This document shows positions 10,760 to 41,865 of a stretch of 42,782 nt of DNA, one piece after another (position 1 is the stretch's first letter; every line of letters begins with the position of its first letter). The DNA is from Candidatus Schekmanbacteria bacterium (GTDB lineage Bacteria > CSSED10-310 > JACPHN01): positions 1-42,782 of the forward strand of contig JACPHN010000037.1 in the NCBI GenBank assembly GCA_016188575.1, read 5' to 3'. The translations under genes were made by a program, and so were the position numbers. The notes under the pieces were generated by a model. That model was not told where the DNA came from. It saw only the letters and a program-made list of their open reading frames with translations, and ran no database searches.

Positions 10760-11443
10760 ATGTCGAATGAGTCCATGGAGCCGGGCACCCCGGCTTCGCC
10801 CGATAAGCCGTGCGAGACCGCGGCTGCGCCCACGGCCCATTCTCCGGGGCGGCGGCGGTGGGCCGTCGATTTTCTCGGGAGGAACTGGATTCTCGTGAAG
10901 TTTTATTCGCTTTTCGGAATCCTGATCGGGGGCTTCTACCTCGTTTCTTTGCATTCGGGGATCAACGAGTTTTTCCAACTCACCTACCCATCGTTCGTCG
11001 CCCGGCAGGTTTGCTGGCTGCTGAACGTTGTCGGGATCAAATCGTCGGTGTATTCCAACCAGGTGCACATGCCGGGTTTCGCCTTCACCATCATCAGCGG
11101 CTGCACAGGCATTTTCGCGATGATGATCTACGCCTCAGCGGTGCTGGCTTACCCGGCGAAGGCGTGGAGCAAGGCCCTGGGCGTGGTGATGGGGGTGCCG
11201 TGTCTGATGGCGGTCAATGTCGTCCGCCTGGTCGCCCTCGGGGCCATCGGCGTCTACCACAGGAAGTACTTCGAGTACTCTCACGAATACCTGTGGCAAG
11301 GCATTTTTATCATCCTGGTCATCGTGCTGTGGATGTTCTGGCGTTGGCTGCTGGTCGATGAGGACTATTTCGACCCTGAACCCGTAGAGCCGGACACCAC
11401 ACACGGACCCGACACGCAGCACGCGTCCTCGGCTGCAGCGTAA
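10760..11443 (+). CDS. Exosortase/archaeosortase-family membrane transpeptidase
   Basis: This 227-residue inner-membrane protein belongs to the exosortase family, cysteine transpeptidase-like enzymes proposed to cleave C-terminal sorting tags (PEP-CTERM and relatives). The predicted catalytic residues are all present: Cys115 in SGCTGIF, Arg156 in NVVRL and His175 in YSHEYLWQG. Hydrophobic segments lie at about 43-64, 105-132, 139-165 and 178-198. The first 35 residues are Pro/Ala-rich and cytoplasmic, and the tail is acidic. The size fits the small single-domain subtypes such as XrtH, but the subtype cannot be fixed by eye. No protein in the window has a recognisable sorting tag, so its substrates lie elsewhere. 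It sits directly behind the LysM transglycosylase. Confidence 0.82.
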   Translation: MSNESMEPGTPASPDKPCETAAAPTAHSPGRRRWAVDFLGRNWILVKFYSLFGILIGGFYLVSLHSGINEFFQLTYPSFVARQVCWLLNVVGIKSSVYSNQVHMPGFAFTIISGCTGIFAMMIYASAVLAYPAKAWSKALGVVMGVPCLMAVNVVRLVALGAIGVYHRKYFEYSHEYLWQGIFIILVIVLWMFWRWLLVDEDYFDPEPVEPDTTHGPDTQHASSAAA

Positions 11444-25607: not shown

Positions 25608-26167
25608 GCCGCTTGCTCCGCACCGCGCGCGGCGAGCGCGGTTTCACGATTCTCGAGACGCTCATCGCGCTGGTCATCCTGTGCATCGCCACCGGGTCGA
25701 TCGCCGCGCTGTATCCCCAGGCCATGGGACGGATCAGCAACACGGAACGTCGGTCGCTCGCCGTCGTGCTCACCAACCAGTACATGAACCGCATCGAGAC
25801 GACCCGCTTCACAGACATTGCCGCCATCACCAACAACGCGGCGCTGCCCAAGGATCATCCGCTCTACGGACCGTGCGCCACCTTCGACCCGTGCGAGGCG
25901 GACGGCAGTGGCACTATCTTCCACGATTTTGGCACGGTAGGTGGCGATCCCCTGACCGGCTCACCGCCGCCCGACCCGACCTACCACGACTTCCGCGTGG
26001 CCGTGACGGTGCAGGTGAATATGCCCCCCACGGTGATGGGAGACATCAGGACGGTGACGATCAGGACGAACTGGTTGTTCCCCGGGATCGACCCGGACCA
26101 CGACAATCTGCCGCGGGTACAGGTGCAGCGGCGGATCGTATCCTTTGCGGCAGCAGGTCGTCCCTGA
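25604..26167 (+). CDS. PilV-like minor prepilin
   Basis: A 187-residue prepilin. The leader MSRLLRTARGERG is followed by FTILETLIALVILC: cleavage after Gly13, mature Phe1 and Glu5. The hydrophobic helix extends to about residue 35. The globular part includes two Cys close together (GPCATFDPCEAD) that could form a disulfide, and ends with beta-strand-like segments. The position between FimT- and PilW-like genes fits PilV. GGAAGGAG lies upstream and the ATG overlaps the previous stop (ATGA). The longer frame starting at 25532 lies inside the upstream gene and is not used. Confidence 0.84.
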   Translation: MSRLLRTARGERGFTILETLIALVILCIATGSIAALYPQAMGRISNTERRSLAVVLTNQYMNRIETTRFTDIAAITNNAALPKDHPLYGPCATFDPCEADGSGTIFHDFGTVGGDPLTGSPPPDPTYHDFRVAVTVQVNMPPTVMGDIRTVTIRTNWLFPGIDPDHDNLPRVQVQRRIVSFAAAGRP

Positions 26168-26180
26168 GAGAGGTGTGAAC

Positions 26181-27890
26181 GTGCAAGATAGGATCCCCCG
26201 CGCGACCGCAGCGGCCTTCGCTCTTCGGCGCCGCGACGCCGGCGTCACGCTGATCGAGTTTCTCGTAGGTCTCCTGCTGTTCTCCGCGGTATCACTCGTG
26301 GCCTTCGAGCTACTGAAGCTGTCGCGGGCAGCAGTCCGCAAGGGCGGCACCACGTCGGACTTGCAGCAGCAGGGGCGCCTGAGCTTCGTCGAGCTTGCCC
26401 GGCTGATTGGTCGCATGGGCGATGGCACCGAAGACACCGTCGCGTCCAATCTGATGCGCAACCGCGACCAGCCTATCGTCGTGTTCGCCGACGACTACAC
26501 GCTCGTGTTCACCGCGGACCTGGACGAAGAGGTAACCATCCGCGCCACCGACGTCTCGTCGACCGCCGCCGTCGAGGACACCGGCCCATTGACGACGGCG
26601 GACGTCCAGCTCATGCACCCTGATGACATTGCGGGACGTTGGTACTACTGGTATCTGGCCGGGCCCAATGGCAGGCTCGACGGGCTCACCAATAGCGACG
26701 ACCCGCTGGTGCATCCCGGCGCGAACGGCGTGTGGTACCAGTGTACGCCGGGTACCTGCAGCGCCGCGGAGCTGGCGGCGTGTGCGGTGGCCCAGCCGGG
26801 ACTGACCGCGGCGGAGCGGACGTGTGATGACCTCGCCGGTAACGGTGGGACGGCCTGGTTCGACACGCGGGATCGCGCCGGCAACTACGAGTACTCGCTC
26901 AAGGCCGGTGCCAACCGTATTTGGGGTGACGGCGACGAGCTGTGGGTACATCCAGGGCACGACGGCGTGTGGACTGCCGGCGGCGGCATTGATGCCAACA
27001 TGACCGGCGCGGGCCCCGACATCACGTGGGGGTCGAGCGACGACCTCACCGGTCCTGGCAGGACCAACGGGGGGCAGAGCTGGCACTGGGGACCCGCGAC
27101 GGGTGCCGCCGTAACGCAGCGTGATCCGGCGGACGGCCGCAACTGGGACCTCACGGGCGCCGAGACGATCGTCGTCACCATGGACCGCAATGGCGACGGG
27201 CAGGTCGACTATTCCGACCGCTGCGCCGAGCGCAACTTCCGCACCTTCGCGATCGGCTACTACATCAACAGCAAGGCTCCCGCCGACTTCGTCACCATCG
27301 CCTGCGGCGTGCGCGGCCCGGTCGCGGACCCGAATGGCGACCTCGTCCCGCCGGTTTTCCAGTACTGGCTCAACGAGGACATCGACGGCGATGCGGTTTT
27401 TGCGGCGCCGGAAATCGACTTCAACCAGAACGGCGAAGTCGACATCGCGCTGCTGGGGGATCACGGGAGCTGCACGGGCTGCGTTGCGGCCAACGGCATT
27501 CTCGAGCAGGGCGAGATCTTCTTGCTCGTGGCGGGTCTCGATGGGATCGTCGGTGGCGCCGCCGCTCCGGATGCCGTTGGCTCGGCACCTGGCGGCGCGG
27601 TTCCAGACGAGATGGGAGGGCCGACGGCGGCGACCGCGTTCTCGTCAGGCGCCACCTATCGCGATCGGCGCGTGCCCTGGTACTACCGAGAGAAAATAGA
27701 CCGTATCACCGTCGAGCTGACCATGGAGGCCGCGGAACCCGACGGTACGCGCCCGCTGGCGGACGGCTCGGGCGACGTGTATCCCTATTTCCCGAGTGTC
27801 ACATACAAGGGCGTCATCCGGCCCCAGGCGCTGCAGCGCGTCGGCCTCGGTGGCATGGCGCCCGCGACCACGATCATTCCGCCATCGTAG
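26181..27890 (+). CDS. Large PilW-like minor prepilin with calcium-loop-like motifs
   Basis: A 569-residue prepilin, far longer than usual PilW proteins. The leader ends DAG/VTLIEFLVG, with cleavage after Gly21 and Glu at mature position 5, followed by a hydrophobic helix. The large globular part has EF-hand-like loops: DRNGDGQVDYSD at 335-346, DIDGDAVFAAPE at 400-411 and a weaker DFNQNGEVDIAL at 413-424. A VHPGxxGVW motif occurs twice (LVHPGANGVWY and WVHPGHDGVWT). The GTG at 26181 is chosen because GAGAGG lies 7 nt upstream. The calcium role is inferred from loop geometry. It probably sits at the pilus tip with the PilV- and PilX-like proteins. Confidence 0.83.
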   Translation: MQDRIPRATAAAFALRRRDAGVTLIEFLVGLLLFSAVSLVAFELLKLSRAAVRKGGTTSDLQQQGRLSFVELARLIGRMGDGTEDTVASNLMRNRDQPIVVFADDYTLVFTADLDEEVTIRATDVSSTAAVEDTGPLTTADVQLMHPDDIAGRWYYWYLAGPNGRLDGLTNSDDPLVHPGANGVWYQCTPGTCSAAELAACAVAQPGLTAAERTCDDLAGNGGTAWFDTRDRAGNYEYSLKAGANRIWGDGDELWVHPGHDGVWTAGGGIDANMTGAGPDITWGSSDDLTGPGRTNGGQSWHWGPATGAAVTQRDPADGRNWDLTGAETIVVTMDRNGDGQVDYSDRCAERNFRTFAIGYYINSKAPADFVTIACGVRGPVADPNGDLVPPVFQYWLNEDIDGDAVFAAPEIDFNQNGEVDIALLGDHGSCTGCVAANGILEQGEIFLLVAGLDGIVGGAAAPDAVGSAPGGAVPDEMGGPTAATAFSSGATYRDRRVPWYYREKIDRITVELTMEAAEPDGTRPLADGSGDVYPYFPSVTYKGVIRPQALQRVGLGGMAPATTIIPPS

Positions 27891-27906
27891 GCAAGGAGGT
27901 AAGCAG

Positions 27907-29652
27907 ATGACCAGCATGCGCGGACACGCATTCGCCCATCTCCTCGAGCGCTTGAGGCACGACCAGCGCGGAGTCGCGCTGTTGCTCACGCTCATGGTGC
28001 TGACCATCGTGCTCATCGGCGCGATGGCGCTGACTCTGAATTCGATGACGGAAAGTACCGTCGTGATGGCCACGGATGCCTCGGAGGGCGCGTTGAACGC
28101 CGCCCAGAGCGGCATCGCCAGCGCCCTGAGCTGGATCAACAACACGCCGAGCGGCGTGGTTTCCGGCACCGAGCCGGTAGACGTGACGGACGAGGTCAAC
28201 GATTTCATTGGAATTCAGAACGACGATGAGTCGCACGGTGGAGCATACCCGCAGAGCCTCTTCTCGGTAGTCGTCGACCCGCGCAACGCCAACCAGAACA
28301 GCTCGTCAAAGTACTACCTCATTCGCTCGACCGGAAAATACACGTCCGCTCCCGGCAAGACCTCGCTTCGCCAGCTCGAAGCGGTGGTCGAGCAGCTCAA
28401 CTTCGCCGGCTACTCGTATTTTACGACGTACGAGCTTTCCTCCCTGGGCGGCACGATCTGGATCATCGAGCGCGACAGCTTCGACGGTCCGGTGCATACA
28501 AACGACCAGTTCCACATCAAGTCGACTGCTACCGGGCCGATTTTCAGTACCCGCGCCAAGGTGACCTCCGTCGCCACGGACTACGTCAAGTACAGCCCGA
28601 GTCAGCCGGCAGTCCAGTTCAACGGCGGCTATGAGTTCGGCGTGGAGCCGATCCCGTTGCCGGAGAACACCGCGAAGCTCAACGCGTACGCGTCGGGCGG
28701 CATTCTCCTGACTGGCGACACGTACCTCACGTTCTACGTCGACCCGACAGGGCCCGATCCCGTGCCGATGGTCATGATCGAGAATCGGGACTTTTCCACC
28801 AAGCCGCAGTGCACCGACCGCGTTACCGTGGCCGGAGCGGTTCCTCCGCTGTTACCCGGTACCAACTTCATCTGCCGCTGGCCGCTGCTGGATCCGTGGC
28901 GCCATGACAGCTCCACGCAGGGGGCACCTGGGACTGCGAATGGCATCATCGCCGTGCAGAACGGCAGCTTGCGGGTGTCCACGCATCTCTTCTACCCGAG
29001 CGGCCCCGATCCGCGCGACGCGACGTGGTGGGGAACCTGCCCCAACGGCAGCGGCACGACTGGACCTGGTTGCTGGGACACGGTAGGGGGCAACGGCAGC
29101 AACGTTTGCCCGTGTAACAATCTTGTGACGACCCCCTCTACCCCCGACCTGGTTCCCGGCTTGCTCGGGCAGGTCACGCTGGCGTCGGACCAGTCCATCT
29201 ACATCGATAACGACGTCACGTACTATGACGCGCCGCCGGCGGGAACCTCGGTTCTCGGCATGGTGGCGTCCCAAAACATCCTGTTTACGGACAACGAGAC
29301 GACCACTGCGCCGGCGGGCGGCAACGACACCTTGACGGTCCAGGCGGTACTGATGGCGCTCGAAACGTCGATTCAGGCGCACAACTGGGCGGCTCGGGGG
29401 ACGGGAATCCTGAATCTGCTCGGCGGGCTGATTCAAGAGCGACGCGGGATCGTCGGGACGTTCTCGGGAAGCACGGTGGTGTCGGGCTTCGTCAAGAATT
29501 ATCAGTACGACGCGCGACTCGCCAACACGCCCCCGCCGTATTTCCCGACCACCGGCATCTACACGTTCATGAACGTTCGGGAACGCGAGATGCCGCTGTT
29601 GATCGACAACGGCGACGGTACGTACGCCGACATTCTCGTCGACTCTTTCTGA
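27907..29652 (+). CDS. PilX-like pilus assembly protein, 581 residues
   Basis: The N-terminus (RLRHDQRGVALLLTLMVLTIVLIG) is the PilX pattern: basic, QRG, then a hydrophobic helix without Glu at position 5. The extra ~520 residues form a large exported domain rich in Gly, Thr, Asn and Tyr. The segment IERDSFDGPVHTNDQFHIK resembles the uncharacterised DUF4900-type domain often fused to such N-termini. Six or more Cys between about 310 and 420 could make disulfides. AGGAGG stands 7 nt before the ATG, 16 nt after the PilW-like stop. It probably acts in the minor-pilin tip complex, and adhesive function is only inferred. Confidence 0.82.
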   Translation: MTSMRGHAFAHLLERLRHDQRGVALLLTLMVLTIVLIGAMALTLNSMTESTVVMATDASEGALNAAQSGIASALSWINNTPSGVVSGTEPVDVTDEVNDFIGIQNDDESHGGAYPQSLFSVVVDPRNANQNSSSKYYLIRSTGKYTSAPGKTSLRQLEAVVEQLNFAGYSYFTTYELSSLGGTIWIIERDSFDGPVHTNDQFHIKSTATGPIFSTRAKVTSVATDYVKYSPSQPAVQFNGGYEFGVEPIPLPENTAKLNAYASGGILLTGDTYLTFYVDPTGPDPVPMVMIENRDFSTKPQCTDRVTVAGAVPPLLPGTNFICRWPLLDPWRHDSSTQGAPGTANGIIAVQNGSLRVSTHLFYPSGPDPRDATWWGTCPNGSGTTGPGCWDTVGGNGSNVCPCNNLVTTPSTPDLVPGLLGQVTLASDQSIYIDNDVTYYDAPPAGTSVLGMVASQNILFTDNETTTAPAGGNDTLTVQAVLMALETSIQAHNWAARGTGILNLLGGLIQERRGIVGTFSGSTVVSGFVKNYQYDARLANTPPPYFPTTGIYTFMNVREREMPLLIDNGDGTYADILVDSF

Positions 29653-36943: not shown

Positions 36944-38197
36944 CTACGGCTCGATGACGGTCTCGGGCTCGATGATTGCGTCCTTCGCCACCACGACGAT
37001 TCCATCGCGGACGCACCAGGCGTCGCCGTTCACCTCGGTTCCCAGCGGAAACGGCCGAATCCTCACATTGGCGCCGATGCGTGCGTTCTTGTCGATGATC
37101 GCCCCTTCGATATCGCAACATGGCCCGGTGCCAAGGCGAACCGGCATGCGGTGGCTGTCCTCGCTCTCGTAGTAATCCGCTCCCATGACCACGCAGTTGC
37201 GAATGCGGCAGCCGTGGCCCACGTGGCTGCGCAGGCCGATGATGGAGCTCGTTACCGAGGAGTTGATGACGCGGCAGCCGTCCGCCAGGAGCACGCCGTC
37301 CAGGGTGCTGGACGTGACGATGGAGCCGGGCAAGAACCGCGGCCGCGTGTAGATCGGCTGCTGGTTGTCATAGAAGCTGAAGGGCGGATTGTGAGCCGCC
37401 ATGAGCAGGTTGGCTTCGTAGAAAGCACGCATCGTCCCGATATCCTCCCAGTATCCGGAGAATTCGTGGGCGCGGACGTCGAGCGTGTCGATGGCGCGCG
37501 GAATCAGGTCGGCTCCGAAGTCATCGATACTGCGGTCCTCGAGAAGTTTCCGCAGCATCGCCGTCTTGAAGGCGTAGATGCCCATGGAACCCTGGTAGGG
37601 GCGGTCGAGCCCGCGCCGGCACACGAAGCGTTCCAGCACCGCCGGATCACGCGTCTTTTCGACGAACGCGGTGATTCGGCCACGGTCGTCGCACTGCAGG
37701 AGCCCGAAACGCGAAGCGTCCGCCTCCGGCACGGGATAGGCGCCGACCGTGATGTCCGCGCTATCCCGAAAGTGCTGGGCCAGCATCTTCGCGTAGTCCA
37801 TCCGATACAGGTGATCTCCAGCGAGGATGAGCACGTCGGTGGCGTCGGAGGATTCGATTTCCACGAGCTGCTTGCGGACCGCGTCCGCCGTTCCCTGATA
37901 CCAGTCCGAGCTCTGCGTTGTTTGTTCGGCGGCCCAGATCTGTATCCAACCGCGGTGGAAGACGTCGAAGTTGTAGCTCTGCGTGATGTGGCGGTGTAGC
38001 GATACGGAGTTGAACTGGGTGAGAATGGCGATCTCGTAGAGCCCGGAATTGATGCAGTTGCTGATGGGAATGTCGATGAGGCGGTATTTACCGCCGATCG
38101 GCACCGCGGGCTTGGAACGCATCCGGGTCAGGGGATAGAGGCGATTGCCGCGCCCGCCACCAAGGATCACAGACAGAACTCTGCGATTGTCGCTCAC
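36944..38197 (-). CDS. glgC: Glucose-1-phosphate adenylyltransferase (GlgC)
   Basis: A 417-residue enzyme that makes ADP-glucose from ATP and glucose-1-phosphate, the first committed step of bacterial glycogen synthesis. The N-terminal nucleotidyltransferase domain has the signature GGGRGNRLYPLTRMRSKPAVP, then KYRLIDIPISNCINSG and the catalytic-region LAGDHLYRMDY. SGYWEDIGT binds the sugar phosphate. The C-terminal left-handed beta-helix runs from about 290 (LPGSIVTSSTLDGVLLADGC). GGAGGT stands 6 nt before the GTG start. It lies 36 nt downstream of the solute-binding gene on the same strand and may be in that operon. No other glycogen gene is in the window. Confidence 0.93.
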   Translation of the reverse strand: MSDNRRVLSVILGGGRGNRLYPLTRMRSKPAVPIGGKYRLIDIPISNCINSGLYEIAILTQFNSVSLHRHITQSYNFDVFHRGWIQIWAAEQTTQSSDWYQGTADAVRKQLVEIESSDATDVLILAGDHLYRMDYAKMLAQHFRDSADITVGAYPVPEADASRFGLLQCDDRGRITAFVEKTRDPAVLERFVCRRGLDRPYQGSMGIYAFKTAMLRKLLEDRSIDDFGADLIPRAIDTLDVRAHEFSGYWEDIGTMRAFYEANLLMAAHNPPFSFYDNQQPIYTRPRFLPGSIVTSSTLDGVLLADGCRVINSSVTSSIIGLRSHVGHGCRIRNCVVMGADYYESEDSHRMPVRLGTGPCCDIEGAIIDKNARIGANVRIRPFPLGTEVNGDAWCVRDGIVVVAKDAIIEPETVIEP

Positions 38198-38233: not shown

Positions 38234-39331
38234 CTATTGCACGCCGCGAATGAGCTCGTTCATGGTCGCCCCCGCCGGCAAGGGCAGCACCGCGGTGATC
38301 GATTCCGGGATTCCGGCGAGCTCGAGCACGCGAGGGTCGTTTTGGACTCCGAGCAGACCGGAGCGAAAGCCGTGCTTCTCCCAGGCCAGGCGCTGAATCT
38401 CCGGATCCTTTAATGCCTCGATGAGCTTCTTGCCGCGACCGGTCATTGCGATCAGAGGATGCTCGGACCACACGGTCGGTTTCGGGTAGAGGATCCGGAT
38501 CTTCTCGCGCAACGTCTGGCGGAATTCCTGATGGTCGATGAAAAACTCGACGAGCTGGCTCTCGTACCCGGCGATGATCGGCCTTGCCCCGATGCCGGTC
38601 TTGAGAAAGGACTGGAACAGGTCACCGGAGGAGCTCTCCAGATGTCCGAGGCGCGCGTAGTAGCTTTTCAGCCGCGGCAACAGCGCCGGCAGATCCTGCT
38701 CCGTAGCTACGTTTCCGCCGTTGAGCATGTTGGCGACGAGGCCGGCGAAGACCGCGCCGGAGCTGCTCCGCGACGGGTCCGTCGTGAAGATGCTGATTTT
38801 TCCGAAGAGCTCCGCAACGCCGATATCTGACCACTTTTTCTCCTCGGTGATGGCCGCGATGAGACCCGAGAAATCAGTGACGTAGTGGGCCGTCCCCTCG
38901 TCGGACACGAATCCGGCCTTGGTGAGCGCGTCTGCGACGGGCGCCCAGGCATACAGTACGATGGGGCTGTTGAAGATGGTCTCTTCGCCCTCGATGTGAG
39001 CCCCGCGGGCGCGAAAAATCTCCGCGGCAGTCTGGCTGGATGGCCAGACGCAGTCTTTTCCATCCAGCGACAGAGACGTCACCATCTCGATGCTGCCGGC
39101 CTTGCTCCCGTCGATGCTCAGGCCGTATTTCGCGGCGAGAAGCTGTTTCACGGCCGGATCGTCGAGAAAGCCGGACTTTTCGCCGCCGACATAAGCGCGG
39201 ACAGTTTCGGCGGCGGCCGGGGAGCCGCCGGTGCCGCTCGAAGTCACGGCGCTCTTTTCCCGCACCTGAAGGACGATCACCGCGGCGATGACGCCCACGA
39301 GAATGACGACACCGAGGAGCTTCTTAGCCAT
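38234..39331 (-). CDS. Membrane-anchored periplasmic solute-binding-like protein
   Basis: A 365-residue protein with an uncleaved-looking N-terminal helix (KLLGVVILVGVIAAVIVLQV) and no lipobox, then a periplasmic-binding-protein-like domain. Segments CVWPSSQTAAEI, SRSSSGAVFAGLVANMLNGG and ARPIIAGYESQLVEFF resemble matching parts of the solute-binding half of the VWA protein two genes upstream, so the two look paralogous. No ABC permease or ATPase is encoded nearby, so transport is doubtful and a sensing or assembly role is possible. AAGGAG is 6 nt before the ATG, which overlaps the end of the XpaC-like gene by 8 nt. Confidence 0.78.
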   Translation of the reverse strand: MAKKLLGVVILVGVIAAVIVLQVREKSAVTSSGTGGSPAAAETVRAYVGGEKSGFLDDPAVKQLLAAKYGLSIDGSKAGSIEMVTSLSLDGKDCVWPSSQTAAEIFRARGAHIEGEETIFNSPIVLYAWAPVADALTKAGFVSDEGTAHYVTDFSGLIAAITEEKKWSDIGVAELFGKISIFTTDPSRSSSGAVFAGLVANMLNGGNVATEQDLPALLPRLKSYYARLGHLESSSGDLFQSFLKTGIGARPIIAGYESQLVEFFIDHQEFRQTLREKIRILYPKPTVWSEHPLIAMTGRGKKLIEALKDPEIQRLAWEKHGFRSGLLGVQNDPRVLELAGIPESITAVLPLPAGATMNELIRGVQ

Positions 39332-39953
39332 GATGTTCTCCTTCGCTCTGGATGGGTCCTTCGAGCATGAGCATTTCCTCGAAGGCGCGGGCATCCGCGC
39401 CGAGCTCGGCCAGATCGCGATCGATGAGGCGGCTGACCTGAGAGTCGAACGCTTGCCGGCCGAGTTTCAAGATATTCTCGATTTGCTCGAGTCGATCTCG
39501 CTGCTCGGTCGTGGCGTGAGGCAACGCGCTCAGCTCGGTGTATTTTCGAGCGATGCCGAGTGTCCGGCCCACGTAGATGCCCAAAAAGTCCGCCAGAGCC
39601 GCACGCGCGTGTTGATCGGCACCCACGCGCTCGAGCGCGTTCTCGACGGACGCGGCGATTCTTTGCATGTTGTCAGCTACTGCCGGCTTGAGCGAGCTCC
39701 TGGCGAGGCCTCGCAGCGCGGCGGCGTCCCGTTGCGCTGCGGCGAGCGCGCGTTCGCAGTCGGGAGGGGGCACCGCGGCGGGAGACGCCGGGAGCAGGAG
39801 CTGAAGCGCCACAAGCACGCTGCCCGCCAGGACCGCATCGAGCCAGATCGGCATGGTCGTCGCCACATAAAGTCCGACAAAGGCGGCGGCTGCCGACAGC
39901 CCGCTCAGCAGCTCCCTGGCGAGGCCATGCCATGTGGATGGAGAAGATGCCAC
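39324..39953 (-). CDS. XpaC-like membrane protein (BCIP-hydrolysis family)
   Basis: A 209-residue protein resembling XpaC, named for 5-bromo-4-chloroindolyl phosphate hydrolysis, whose real function is unknown and which is often linked to TelA-type toxic-anion-resistance genes. Two adjacent N-terminal membrane helices (about 15-33 and 38-54, ELLSGLSAAAAFVGLYV and LDAVLAGSVLVALQLLL) are followed by a long helical cytoplasmic region (ASVENALERVGADQHARAALADF, then KLGRQAFDSQVSRLIDRDLAELG). It sits 5 nt after the VWA gene and overlaps the next gene by 8 nt, so all three are co-translated. No telA is in the window. Confidence 0.72.
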   Translation of the reverse strand: MASSPSTWHGLARELLSGLSAAAAFVGLYVATTMPIWLDAVLAGSVLVALQLLLPASPAAVPPPDCERALAAAQRDAAALRGLARSSLKPAVADNMQRIAASVENALERVGADQHARAALADFLGIYVGRTLGIARKYTELSALPHATTEQRDRLEQIENILKLGRQAFDSQVSRLIDRDLAELGADARAFEEMLMLEGPIQSEGEHHG

Positions 39954-39958
39954 GATCG

Positions 39959-41602
39959 TCAGTTGAATCCTTTTGCCTGCCGGAACGCCCCGATCAGGTC
40001 CTTTTGCCCGTCGAACACCTTGCCGAAGGCTTGCTTGGACAGGCGTTCGAGCTGCGCCGAGTCGGCGCTTCCGAACATGATCGAGAAGACCGGGATATCT
40101 CTCGCGAACGGCAGGGTGTCCAGCTTCTCCTGGAGAACGGGCAGGGTCTCCGCCGACTTGCCGTCGGTCATGAGAATGATTGCAGGGAAGTATTCCGCGA
40201 GCCGATCGGCATAAGCGTTGATCTCGTCCAGCGCCTGCGCCGTGGCGCGGTAGATGTCCGTACCGCCGCTCGGGGATATGCGCAGGACCTCCCGCAGCAG
40301 ACCCGCGAGCATGGCGGGGTCGTTGCCTTCCTTGCGCAGGATTGCCATCGGCACGTGGCTAAAGGGAACGACGATGTGCACGTCGCGCGGAGAGGCCTGG
40401 ATCATATATCGGCGCGCCTGCTCGGGATCGAGCAGGATGCGCATGGCCGCCTCCAGTTGCCGCTCGCCATCTCCGGCCATGCTCCCGGAGTAATCCAGGG
40501 CGTAGACGGTCAGCGATGGTTTGCGGAGCGCCGTCTGGTAGAGGTTGAGCGCCTCCTGCACGACATCGCGCGGCGGCGTCGGGACAGACGCGATCACGCG
40601 GTTGACGTCGATGCACCACTCCGGGTTGAAAACGGCGGGATCGGGATTGTCGACGCCAAGGCCCAGCAGTGAGGCGCGGCGCCCGAGCGACTCGATTTCT
40701 CGACGAACCTCCGCGCTGGACAGATAGCGCTGCAGCTCCAAAAAGACCTGTTCCTTGGCGGCATCTGCGTGGTCGACGTACCCCAATGGGTGGTCGGCGA
40801 CCATCAGGCCGTCGGCGGGGTATACCGCGCAAAGCGGTTCCTTGCCCGCCTGCACCAGCTCGCGATTGGCCTCGATGACGAGAGATTCGTAGTTGAACAT
40901 CGCGTCGTACTGGTCATACCCACTGACGATGAGATCCTTGAGCCATCCCGAGCTGCCGGAGGAACGCTCGACGTGCGAGAGCAGCCGCCGGACGGCATCA
41001 TGCAGCAGCGGATCCTGCAGATGCTGGTGCGTCAGCACGTCGGGGCTGCCGGCGAGGGCGTGGAGGAACCCCAGATAGGCGGCCGCCCCCGAGTTGCTTT
41101 GCGTGGCGGAAGTCATGGCGAAGTTGAGCTTGCCGGCGTCGGCCGCAGCCAGGATATCGGCGATGACGACGGGCTTGCCTACCCACCCGAGCTCTTCGCA
41201 AAGCGACTTCCTGATGGCGAGCACGACGGGGGATCGGGCCACGCTCGCCGCATGCTTGACCACTTTGGTCCGGTCACCGAGCTCGATCCAGAGTGAGTTT
41301 GCGGGCCAGACCGAGTCGGCCTCCATGGTCTTTCCCTTTTCGAGCTCAAGGGCAATATCGACGCTCCCCTTGTAGGTCATCTCGATAGTGACGCCGCTCT
41401 TCGCAGCGAAGCGCTCGACGATAGGCTGTAGAGCGGTGTTCTCGGATCCTGAGAGCACGCGCAGTGGCCGGGCAGTCGCGCTCGCCGCGTCTCGGGAAGT
41501 CCCGGAGGAAGCGGGAGCGCCTGCGTCGTCGCGACCGCCGCATGCGAGGATTGCGACACTGACAAGCAGCGCAGAGGCGAGACAAGTCGCTCTTCGTGGC
41601 AC
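39959..41602 (-). CDS. Lipoprotein with solute-binding domain fused to a VWA domain
   Basis: A 547-residue exported protein. The lipobox is VAILAC with Cys21. Residues ~45-340 resemble a type II periplasmic binding protein (LRVLSGSENTALQPIVERFAAKSG, DSVWPANSLWIELG, TSATQSNSGAAAYLGFLHA). Residues ~360-547 form a von Willebrand A domain with an intact metal-ion adhesion site: DYSGS at 370-374, Thr448 in SGGTDIYRA and Asp480 in LMTDGKS. VWA domains bind partner proteins through this metal. The GTG at 41602 has GGAGG 5 nt upstream. It heads the operon with the XpaC-like and second binding-protein genes; the coupling suggests one envelope complex. Confidence 0.82.
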   Translation of the reverse strand: MPRRATCLASALLVSVAILACGGRDDAGAPASSGTSRDAASATARPLRVLSGSENTALQPIVERFAAKSGVTIEMTYKGSVDIALELEKGKTMEADSVWPANSLWIELGDRTKVVKHAASVARSPVVLAIRKSLCEELGWVGKPVVIADILAAADAGKLNFAMTSATQSNSGAAAYLGFLHALAGSPDVLTHQHLQDPLLHDAVRRLLSHVERSSGSSGWLKDLIVSGYDQYDAMFNYESLVIEANRELVQAGKEPLCAVYPADGLMVADHPLGYVDHADAAKEQVFLELQRYLSSAEVRREIESLGRRASLLGLGVDNPDPAVFNPEWCIDVNRVIASVPTPPRDVVQEALNLYQTALRKPSLTVYALDYSGSMAGDGERQLEAAMRILLDPEQARRYMIQASPRDVHIVVPFSHVPMAILRKEGNDPAMLAGLLREVLRISPSGGTDIYRATAQALDEINAYADRLAEYFPAIILMTDGKSAETLPVLQEKLDTLPFARDIPVFSIMFGSADSAQLERLSKQAFGKVFDGQKDLIGAFRQAKGFN

Positions 41603-41865
41603 GCCACCCTCCCTGAATGCTGGTGGAGCTCGCTATCGCCCGCCGGGCCGGCGGCTCCAGTGCAAGCATAGAGGCAGGTGTGGATCGTGTCAACGTGGCC
41701 GAGGAGAACAAATCGCCCGCTACCATCTGTCACCTCAGCGCGGACCGCCTCCTGGCAAGACCCCGGCTTTCGCCGGGAGGCATCATCGCCGACATGACGA
41801 TATTGCGGCGGCCGCGTGGATCAGCCGGGCGATTTGGGAGAAACCTCGGAGGTGTCAGCAGATCG
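41603..41865. other. Upstream region of the VWA operon
   Basis: No supported gene. It must contain the promoter of the minus-strand operon, but I see no convincing hexamers. A small hairpin CCCGGC/GCCGGG with a TTTC loop lies at 41762-41777 and has no T-run. Confidence 0.45.

Follow-up and report, generated by a model that had tools for sequence, protein, structure and literature searches.

Organisation of the locus

The window analysed here, a 42,782-nucleotide stretch of a Candidatus Schekmanbacteria contig (JACPHN010000037.1), carries a cassette of three genes on the minus strand that had been picked out in a preliminary description made from the DNA letters alone. The first gene (SBP-VWA, 39959..41602) encodes a lipoprotein of 547 amino acids with a signal peptide, an SBP_bac_11 domain and a C-terminal VWA domain; the second (39324..39953) encodes a 209 amino-acid protein of the XpaC family (Halogen_Hydrol), assigned from Pfam and hydropathy; and the third (SBP2, 38234..39331) encodes an N-terminally anchored type II periplasmic binding protein of 365 amino acids. 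The stop and start coordinates confirm the close packing that had been claimed for these genes: SBP-VWA stops at 39959 and the GTG start of xpaC is at 39953, leaving a gap of 5 nt, and the xpaC stop at 39324 and the SBP2 ATG at 39331 give an overlap of 8 nt. Because a clear ribosome-binding site, GAAGGAGAAC, precedes this ATG and the 8-nt overlap results from its use, we take 39331 to be the likely start of SBP2, replacing the start at 39394 of the listed ORF. All three ORFs are intact.

A promoter-like sequence, TTGACA-17-TATGCT, is present on the same strand at 41665..41693, some 60 nt upstream of the SBP-VWA start. It agrees with the consensus at 10 of 12 positions; as about 0.8 such sites are expected by chance in the region, we regard this as a weak promoter call. 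On the other side, glgC (ADP-glucose pyrophosphorylase, 36944..38197, minus strand) begins 36 nt after SBP2 and is a possible read-through neighbour that lies outside the conserved module.

Properties of the three proteins

The SBP_bac_11 domain of SBP-VWA, at residues about 48-307, scores 79 bits against a Pfam cut-off of 25; a fold search assigned this part to the type II periplasmic-binding-protein fold, and the sequence profile of the protein reaches ModA. At the N-terminus the invariant Cys21 lies within the lipobox ILAC-G (ILAC|GG). VWA models score just below their curated Pfam cut-offs (25.1 against 27 for the best), and all five MIDAS residues (D370, S372, S374, T448 and D480) are present, giving the DxSxS, T and D metal site that marks VWA domains of the MIDAS type. 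D370 and S374 are found in 30 of 30 relatives, position 372 is S or T, and T448 and D480 are found in 29 of 30, the remaining sequence having a gap. Together, the domain score, the lipobox and the five metal-site residues bear out the earlier assignment of this protein as a lipoprotein with a binding domain and an intact VWA metal site. The same architecture is seen, at 28-30% identity, in what NCBI terms 'Substrate-binding and VWA domain-containing protein' (for example Variovorax WP_162570944.1), although that name covers only one component and has no function attached to it.

The second protein scores 37.1 bits with Halogen_Hydrol, above the cut-off of 29.8, and its Lachnospiraceae orthologues score 43-118 bits; identity between the window protein and a Lachnospiraceae protein is weak, at about 18-26%. 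Hydropathy analysis places hydrophobic helices at residues 15-33 and 36-54, followed by a helical tail of approximately 155 amino acids. The preliminary description of an XpaC-like two-helix protein with a long helical part is upheld by the Pfam score and the two helices, the membrane topology being a prediction.

SBP2 has a single hydrophobic helix at its N-terminus (residues 5-23, from hydropathy) that would serve as an anchor. Beyond weak chance matches, no Pfam family was detected in the 13 members scanned; however, the predicted model (pLDDT 84), for which the alignment contained no plasmid-derived sequences, is a two-lobed type II periplasmic binding protein that matches sulfate-, ferric- and thiamin-binding proteins with a Z score of about 23 over about 270 residues. 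With its start moved to 39331, the gene fits the second, membrane-anchored binding protein that had been recognised at this position.

The binding domains of SBP-VWA and SBP2 align with each other, profile to profile, at E 2e-18 and, judged on that sequence comparison, are homologous. Common to both are the motifs GSE(K), GS, SNSG, SSS/GSS and YE, which are conserved across 30-32 proteins. By analogy with oxyanion-binding relatives, these motifs suggest a putative ligand pocket, placed in the cleft. Since the domains are homologous and have these motifs in common, we infer that SBP2 and the binding domain of SBP-VWA bind the same or a similar anion.

Conservation of the cassette in other bacteria

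We assembled 32 loci including that of the window, each with a strong SBP2 match, from a collection seeded with one Lachnospiraceae locus plus plasmid matches. The loci were annotated with local profiles, and the neighbours of some Lachnospiraceae loci were assessed by eye rather than by family search. The genes for SBP-VWA and SBP2 lie in one cluster at 31 of the 32 loci, which span several phyla, and in the remaining one the contig ends first; the adjacency in related genomes that had been put forward as a check is accordingly seen for the binding-protein genes. Of the 31 SBP-VWA genes, one is frame-broken; the other 30 are complete, or truncated only where the contig ends. Where the contig permits, the pair is accompanied by a small membrane protein, either XpaC-like or its counterpart. 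Two arrangements occur: in Bacillota and in the window the genes run VWA-XpaC-SBP2(-TelA), while the order SBP2(-TelA)-VWA-membrane protein is found in Betaproteobacteria, Actinomycetota, Deinococcus and one further phylum.

The third protein outside Bacillota has no match to the XpaC family in Pfam. Comparison of Bacillota XpaC with the Actinomycetota/Betaproteobacteria counterpart gave hhalign values of 92-93%, which supports homology between them, albeit modestly. For the helical membrane protein of the most distant branch the corresponding values were 43% and 20%; homology to XpaC is not established here, and this protein may be perhaps a topological equivalent only. The binding proteins of that more distant branch are clearly homologous to those of the window (hhalign E 1e-21 for SBP and 3e-56 for SBP-VWA), and TelA is absent among the profile matches near its three-part loci.

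In trees of SBP2, VWA and XpaC the window sequences group with those of Bacillota with 97-100% support, on long branches, and the common gene order points to the same grouping. Recent transfer from Lachnospiraceae was ruled out, because the GC content across the region is 61-69% and identities are only 42-48%.

The cassette is uncommon. A broad survey gave two strong matches in 386 genomes, one of them the window's own; in one phylum it was found in 6 of 149 genomes, and one sample of 299 Lachnospiraceae genomes contained 13 strong matches along with one decayed copy. The more distant branch came to light through weaker matches, in a group of 9-13 Mb genomes, in some genomes without assignment and on Miltoncostaea and Thiodictyon plasmids. 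Several of these loci combine SBP-VWA and an anchored SBP with a protein that has a hydrophobic N-terminus and a long helical tail. Two Lachnospiraceae copies (L102 and L106) are frame-broken or fragmentary, which suggests that the cassette is being lost in places in this family.

Linkage to TelA

XpaC and TelA are widespread stress proteins, TelA being a cytoplasmic protein tied to resistance to envelope-active compounds and tellurite. In Bacillus subtilis, xpaC-yaaN(telA) belongs to the core sigma-W regulon (PMC3498285), and XpaC-like and telA1 genes respond in a study of CesSR-dependent envelope stress in Lactococcus (PMC3139573). For Listeria, the sensitivity of a telA-homologue mutant is reported to be raised 4-fold to nisin and 2-fold to tellurite (PMC12791056), and TelA has been proposed to form sub-membrane structures (PMC7824862).

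The association of XpaC with TelA to which the preliminary description had pointed is present in most relatives: telA adjoins the cassette in 24 of the 32 loci (two of the copies, in L104 and L120, are partial) and is the usual fourth gene completing the operon. It does not extend to the window, as TelA was found neither there nor in the window's genome (9.2 Mb, 93.8% complete). Compared with the XpaC-TelA operons of Bacillota (B. subtilis xpaC-yaaN, Listeria lmo1966-1967 and Lactococcus llmg_1115-1116), the common elements are an XpaC protein above the Pfam cut-off and, in the cassettes of relatives, TelA; the window differs in that two homologous binding proteins are added, one of them fused to VWA, and in that TelA is undetected in the genome. 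The orf53-telA-telB-telC genes of Lactococcus cremoris, linked to tellurite tolerance (PMC13109727), are likewise a presumed four-gene operon with TelA. Among the proteins scanned around the cassettes of the window and its relatives there was no TerD, TerB or TerC.

The versions of the cassette without adjacent telA show which parts form its core. Each of the six Lachnospiraceae genomes with a cassette of this kind encodes a full-length TelA at another place; this is only suggestive of a link in trans, and weak on its own. A Deinococcus plasmid copy also lacks telA, as far as the plasmid sequence itself is concerned. Because TelA was not found in a 94%-complete genome, the module of the window may act without it, may use another partner, or may have its telA in the missing 6%.

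The window copy could also be a relic of a TelA cassette that has lost telA and is now decaying or neutral, as the TelA result and the decayed L102 and L106 copies would allow. We think this unlikely, as none of the three window ORFs is broken, the conserved residues of the MIDAS and the pocket are retained, and other bacteria keep three-gene modules in which telA is not adjacent.

Absence of transporter genes and other explanations

The preliminary description had also stated that no ABC permease or ATPase is nearby. This holds: the ABC ATPase signature motif is missing from all frames of the window, and the scanned neighbours of the cassette in the window and in its relatives include neither a permease nor an ATPase of the SBP-type ABC kind. 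The exceptions in the flanks are, in L062, an ABC2-type membrane gene on the opposite strand and, close to the decayed copy of L106, an unrelated ORF resembling a permease. On this neighbourhood evidence an ABC-importer operon was rejected, since neither the permease nor the ATPase is there, and as to whether ABC genes normally complete the operon in relatives, it is telA that occupies this place.

The two proteins could nevertheless be orphan binding proteins serving a transporter encoded elsewhere in the genome. The nearest folds of both domains are those of ABC-importer binding proteins, and both retain the conserved putative pocket motifs. The type II fold is common to SBP2, the SBP part of SBP-VWA and proteins such as sulfate Sbp, ferric FbpA/FutA and ModA; but identity to these is about 8-18%, and the window set has no cognate permease or ATPase. 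In addition to the lack of importer genes in the flanks scanned and of an ATPase signature in the window, what regularly accompanies the binding proteins is a VWA domain together with XpaC or TelA, not transporter genes, and two differently anchored binding proteins per locus would be unusual for an importer; we therefore regard this explanation as improbable. There is precedent for this type of fold in a role other than transport, since one of the structural neighbours, the solute-binding protein of PDB 6lkg, is titled as mediating two-component signal transduction, although its partner is a two-component system and none is seen beside the window cassette.

It is very unlikely that the cassette is a metal- or oxyanion-loading system with VWA in the role of a co-chaperone, as is the case for VWA proteins linked to MoxR or chelatases: almost every member has the full set of MIDAS residues and the VWA region has weak matches to chelatase subunits, but this domain follows a lipobox and lies outside the cytoplasm, and the flanks scanned contained no AAA+ partner of the MoxR or chelatase type. 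An anti-phage defence system (PADLOC matched neither the three proteins nor TelA of two relatives), a phage origin (no phage match) and an RNA element (the window has no match in Rfam) were dismissed.

A possible envelope sensor

Because the genes stay together in distant bacteria without a transporter, it is probable that they encode one membrane sensor and not an importer. We give roughly even odds to the more specific reading that the module is an envelope sensor or scaffold that has no part in transport and has TelA as its detachable partner in the cytoplasm. SBP-VWA, as a lipoprotein, and SBP2, through its membrane anchor, would stand outside the cytoplasmic membrane, where both binding domains would take the same or a similar small ligand, probably anionic. 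Ligand-dependent closure might then bring SBP-VWA and SBP2 together, with VWA as the docking part, at whose metal site a partner's acidic group would be held. In the membrane, the two-helix XpaC protein would join this complex with its long helical tail facing the cytoplasm; of the three proteins, it alone is expected to have a large domain exposed on that side. In most relatives, where TelA is present, it would be the likely partner of the XpaC tail, and the putative output would be a response to envelope stress. The envelope-complex model proposed earlier stands as regards a clustered module without ABC importer genes in the flanks scanned; the complex, the ligand and the direction of the signal are those parts that we infer.

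In this cassette XpaC and TelA are joined by a VWA domain and two binding proteins that face outward, which suggests a small extracellular ligand as the input and offers a four-protein complex that can be tested. A search of the literature, which did not extend to a 2012 paper on Ter systems (10.1039/c2mb25239b) or to Collins 2010, found no description of such a cassette. More tentatively, and with some doubt, SBP-VWA, the two-helix protein and SBP2 could be an old, self-standing sensor class of several phyla to which TelA was added as an output arm in some lineages, the window copy without TelA maybe reading a phosphorylated or oxyanion metabolite linked to storage carbohydrate.

Neighbouring genes

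Glycogen genes adjoin cassettes that have no adjacent telA: glgC in the window, and a glycogen phosphorylase gene in two further loci (L095:10429-12891 and L102:4921-7194), with L114 repeating L095 (GlgP 98.8% identical). In a post hoc comparison by BLAST, no glycogen genes were found near the telA-bearing loci. Genes for polyphosphate kinase and CorA lie just upstream of one Lachnospiraceae cassette (L002:2983-5948), and the Sphaerotilus cassette has a gene for a PhoX phosphatase in the corresponding position (L003:3563-5485); a link of the cassette to phosphate is possible. Elsewhere in the window, inspection by eye picked out a plus-strand gene for a membrane protein resembling the exosortase/archaeosortase family (10760-11443) and two plus-strand ORFs with type IV pilin-like N-terminal segments (26145-29652).
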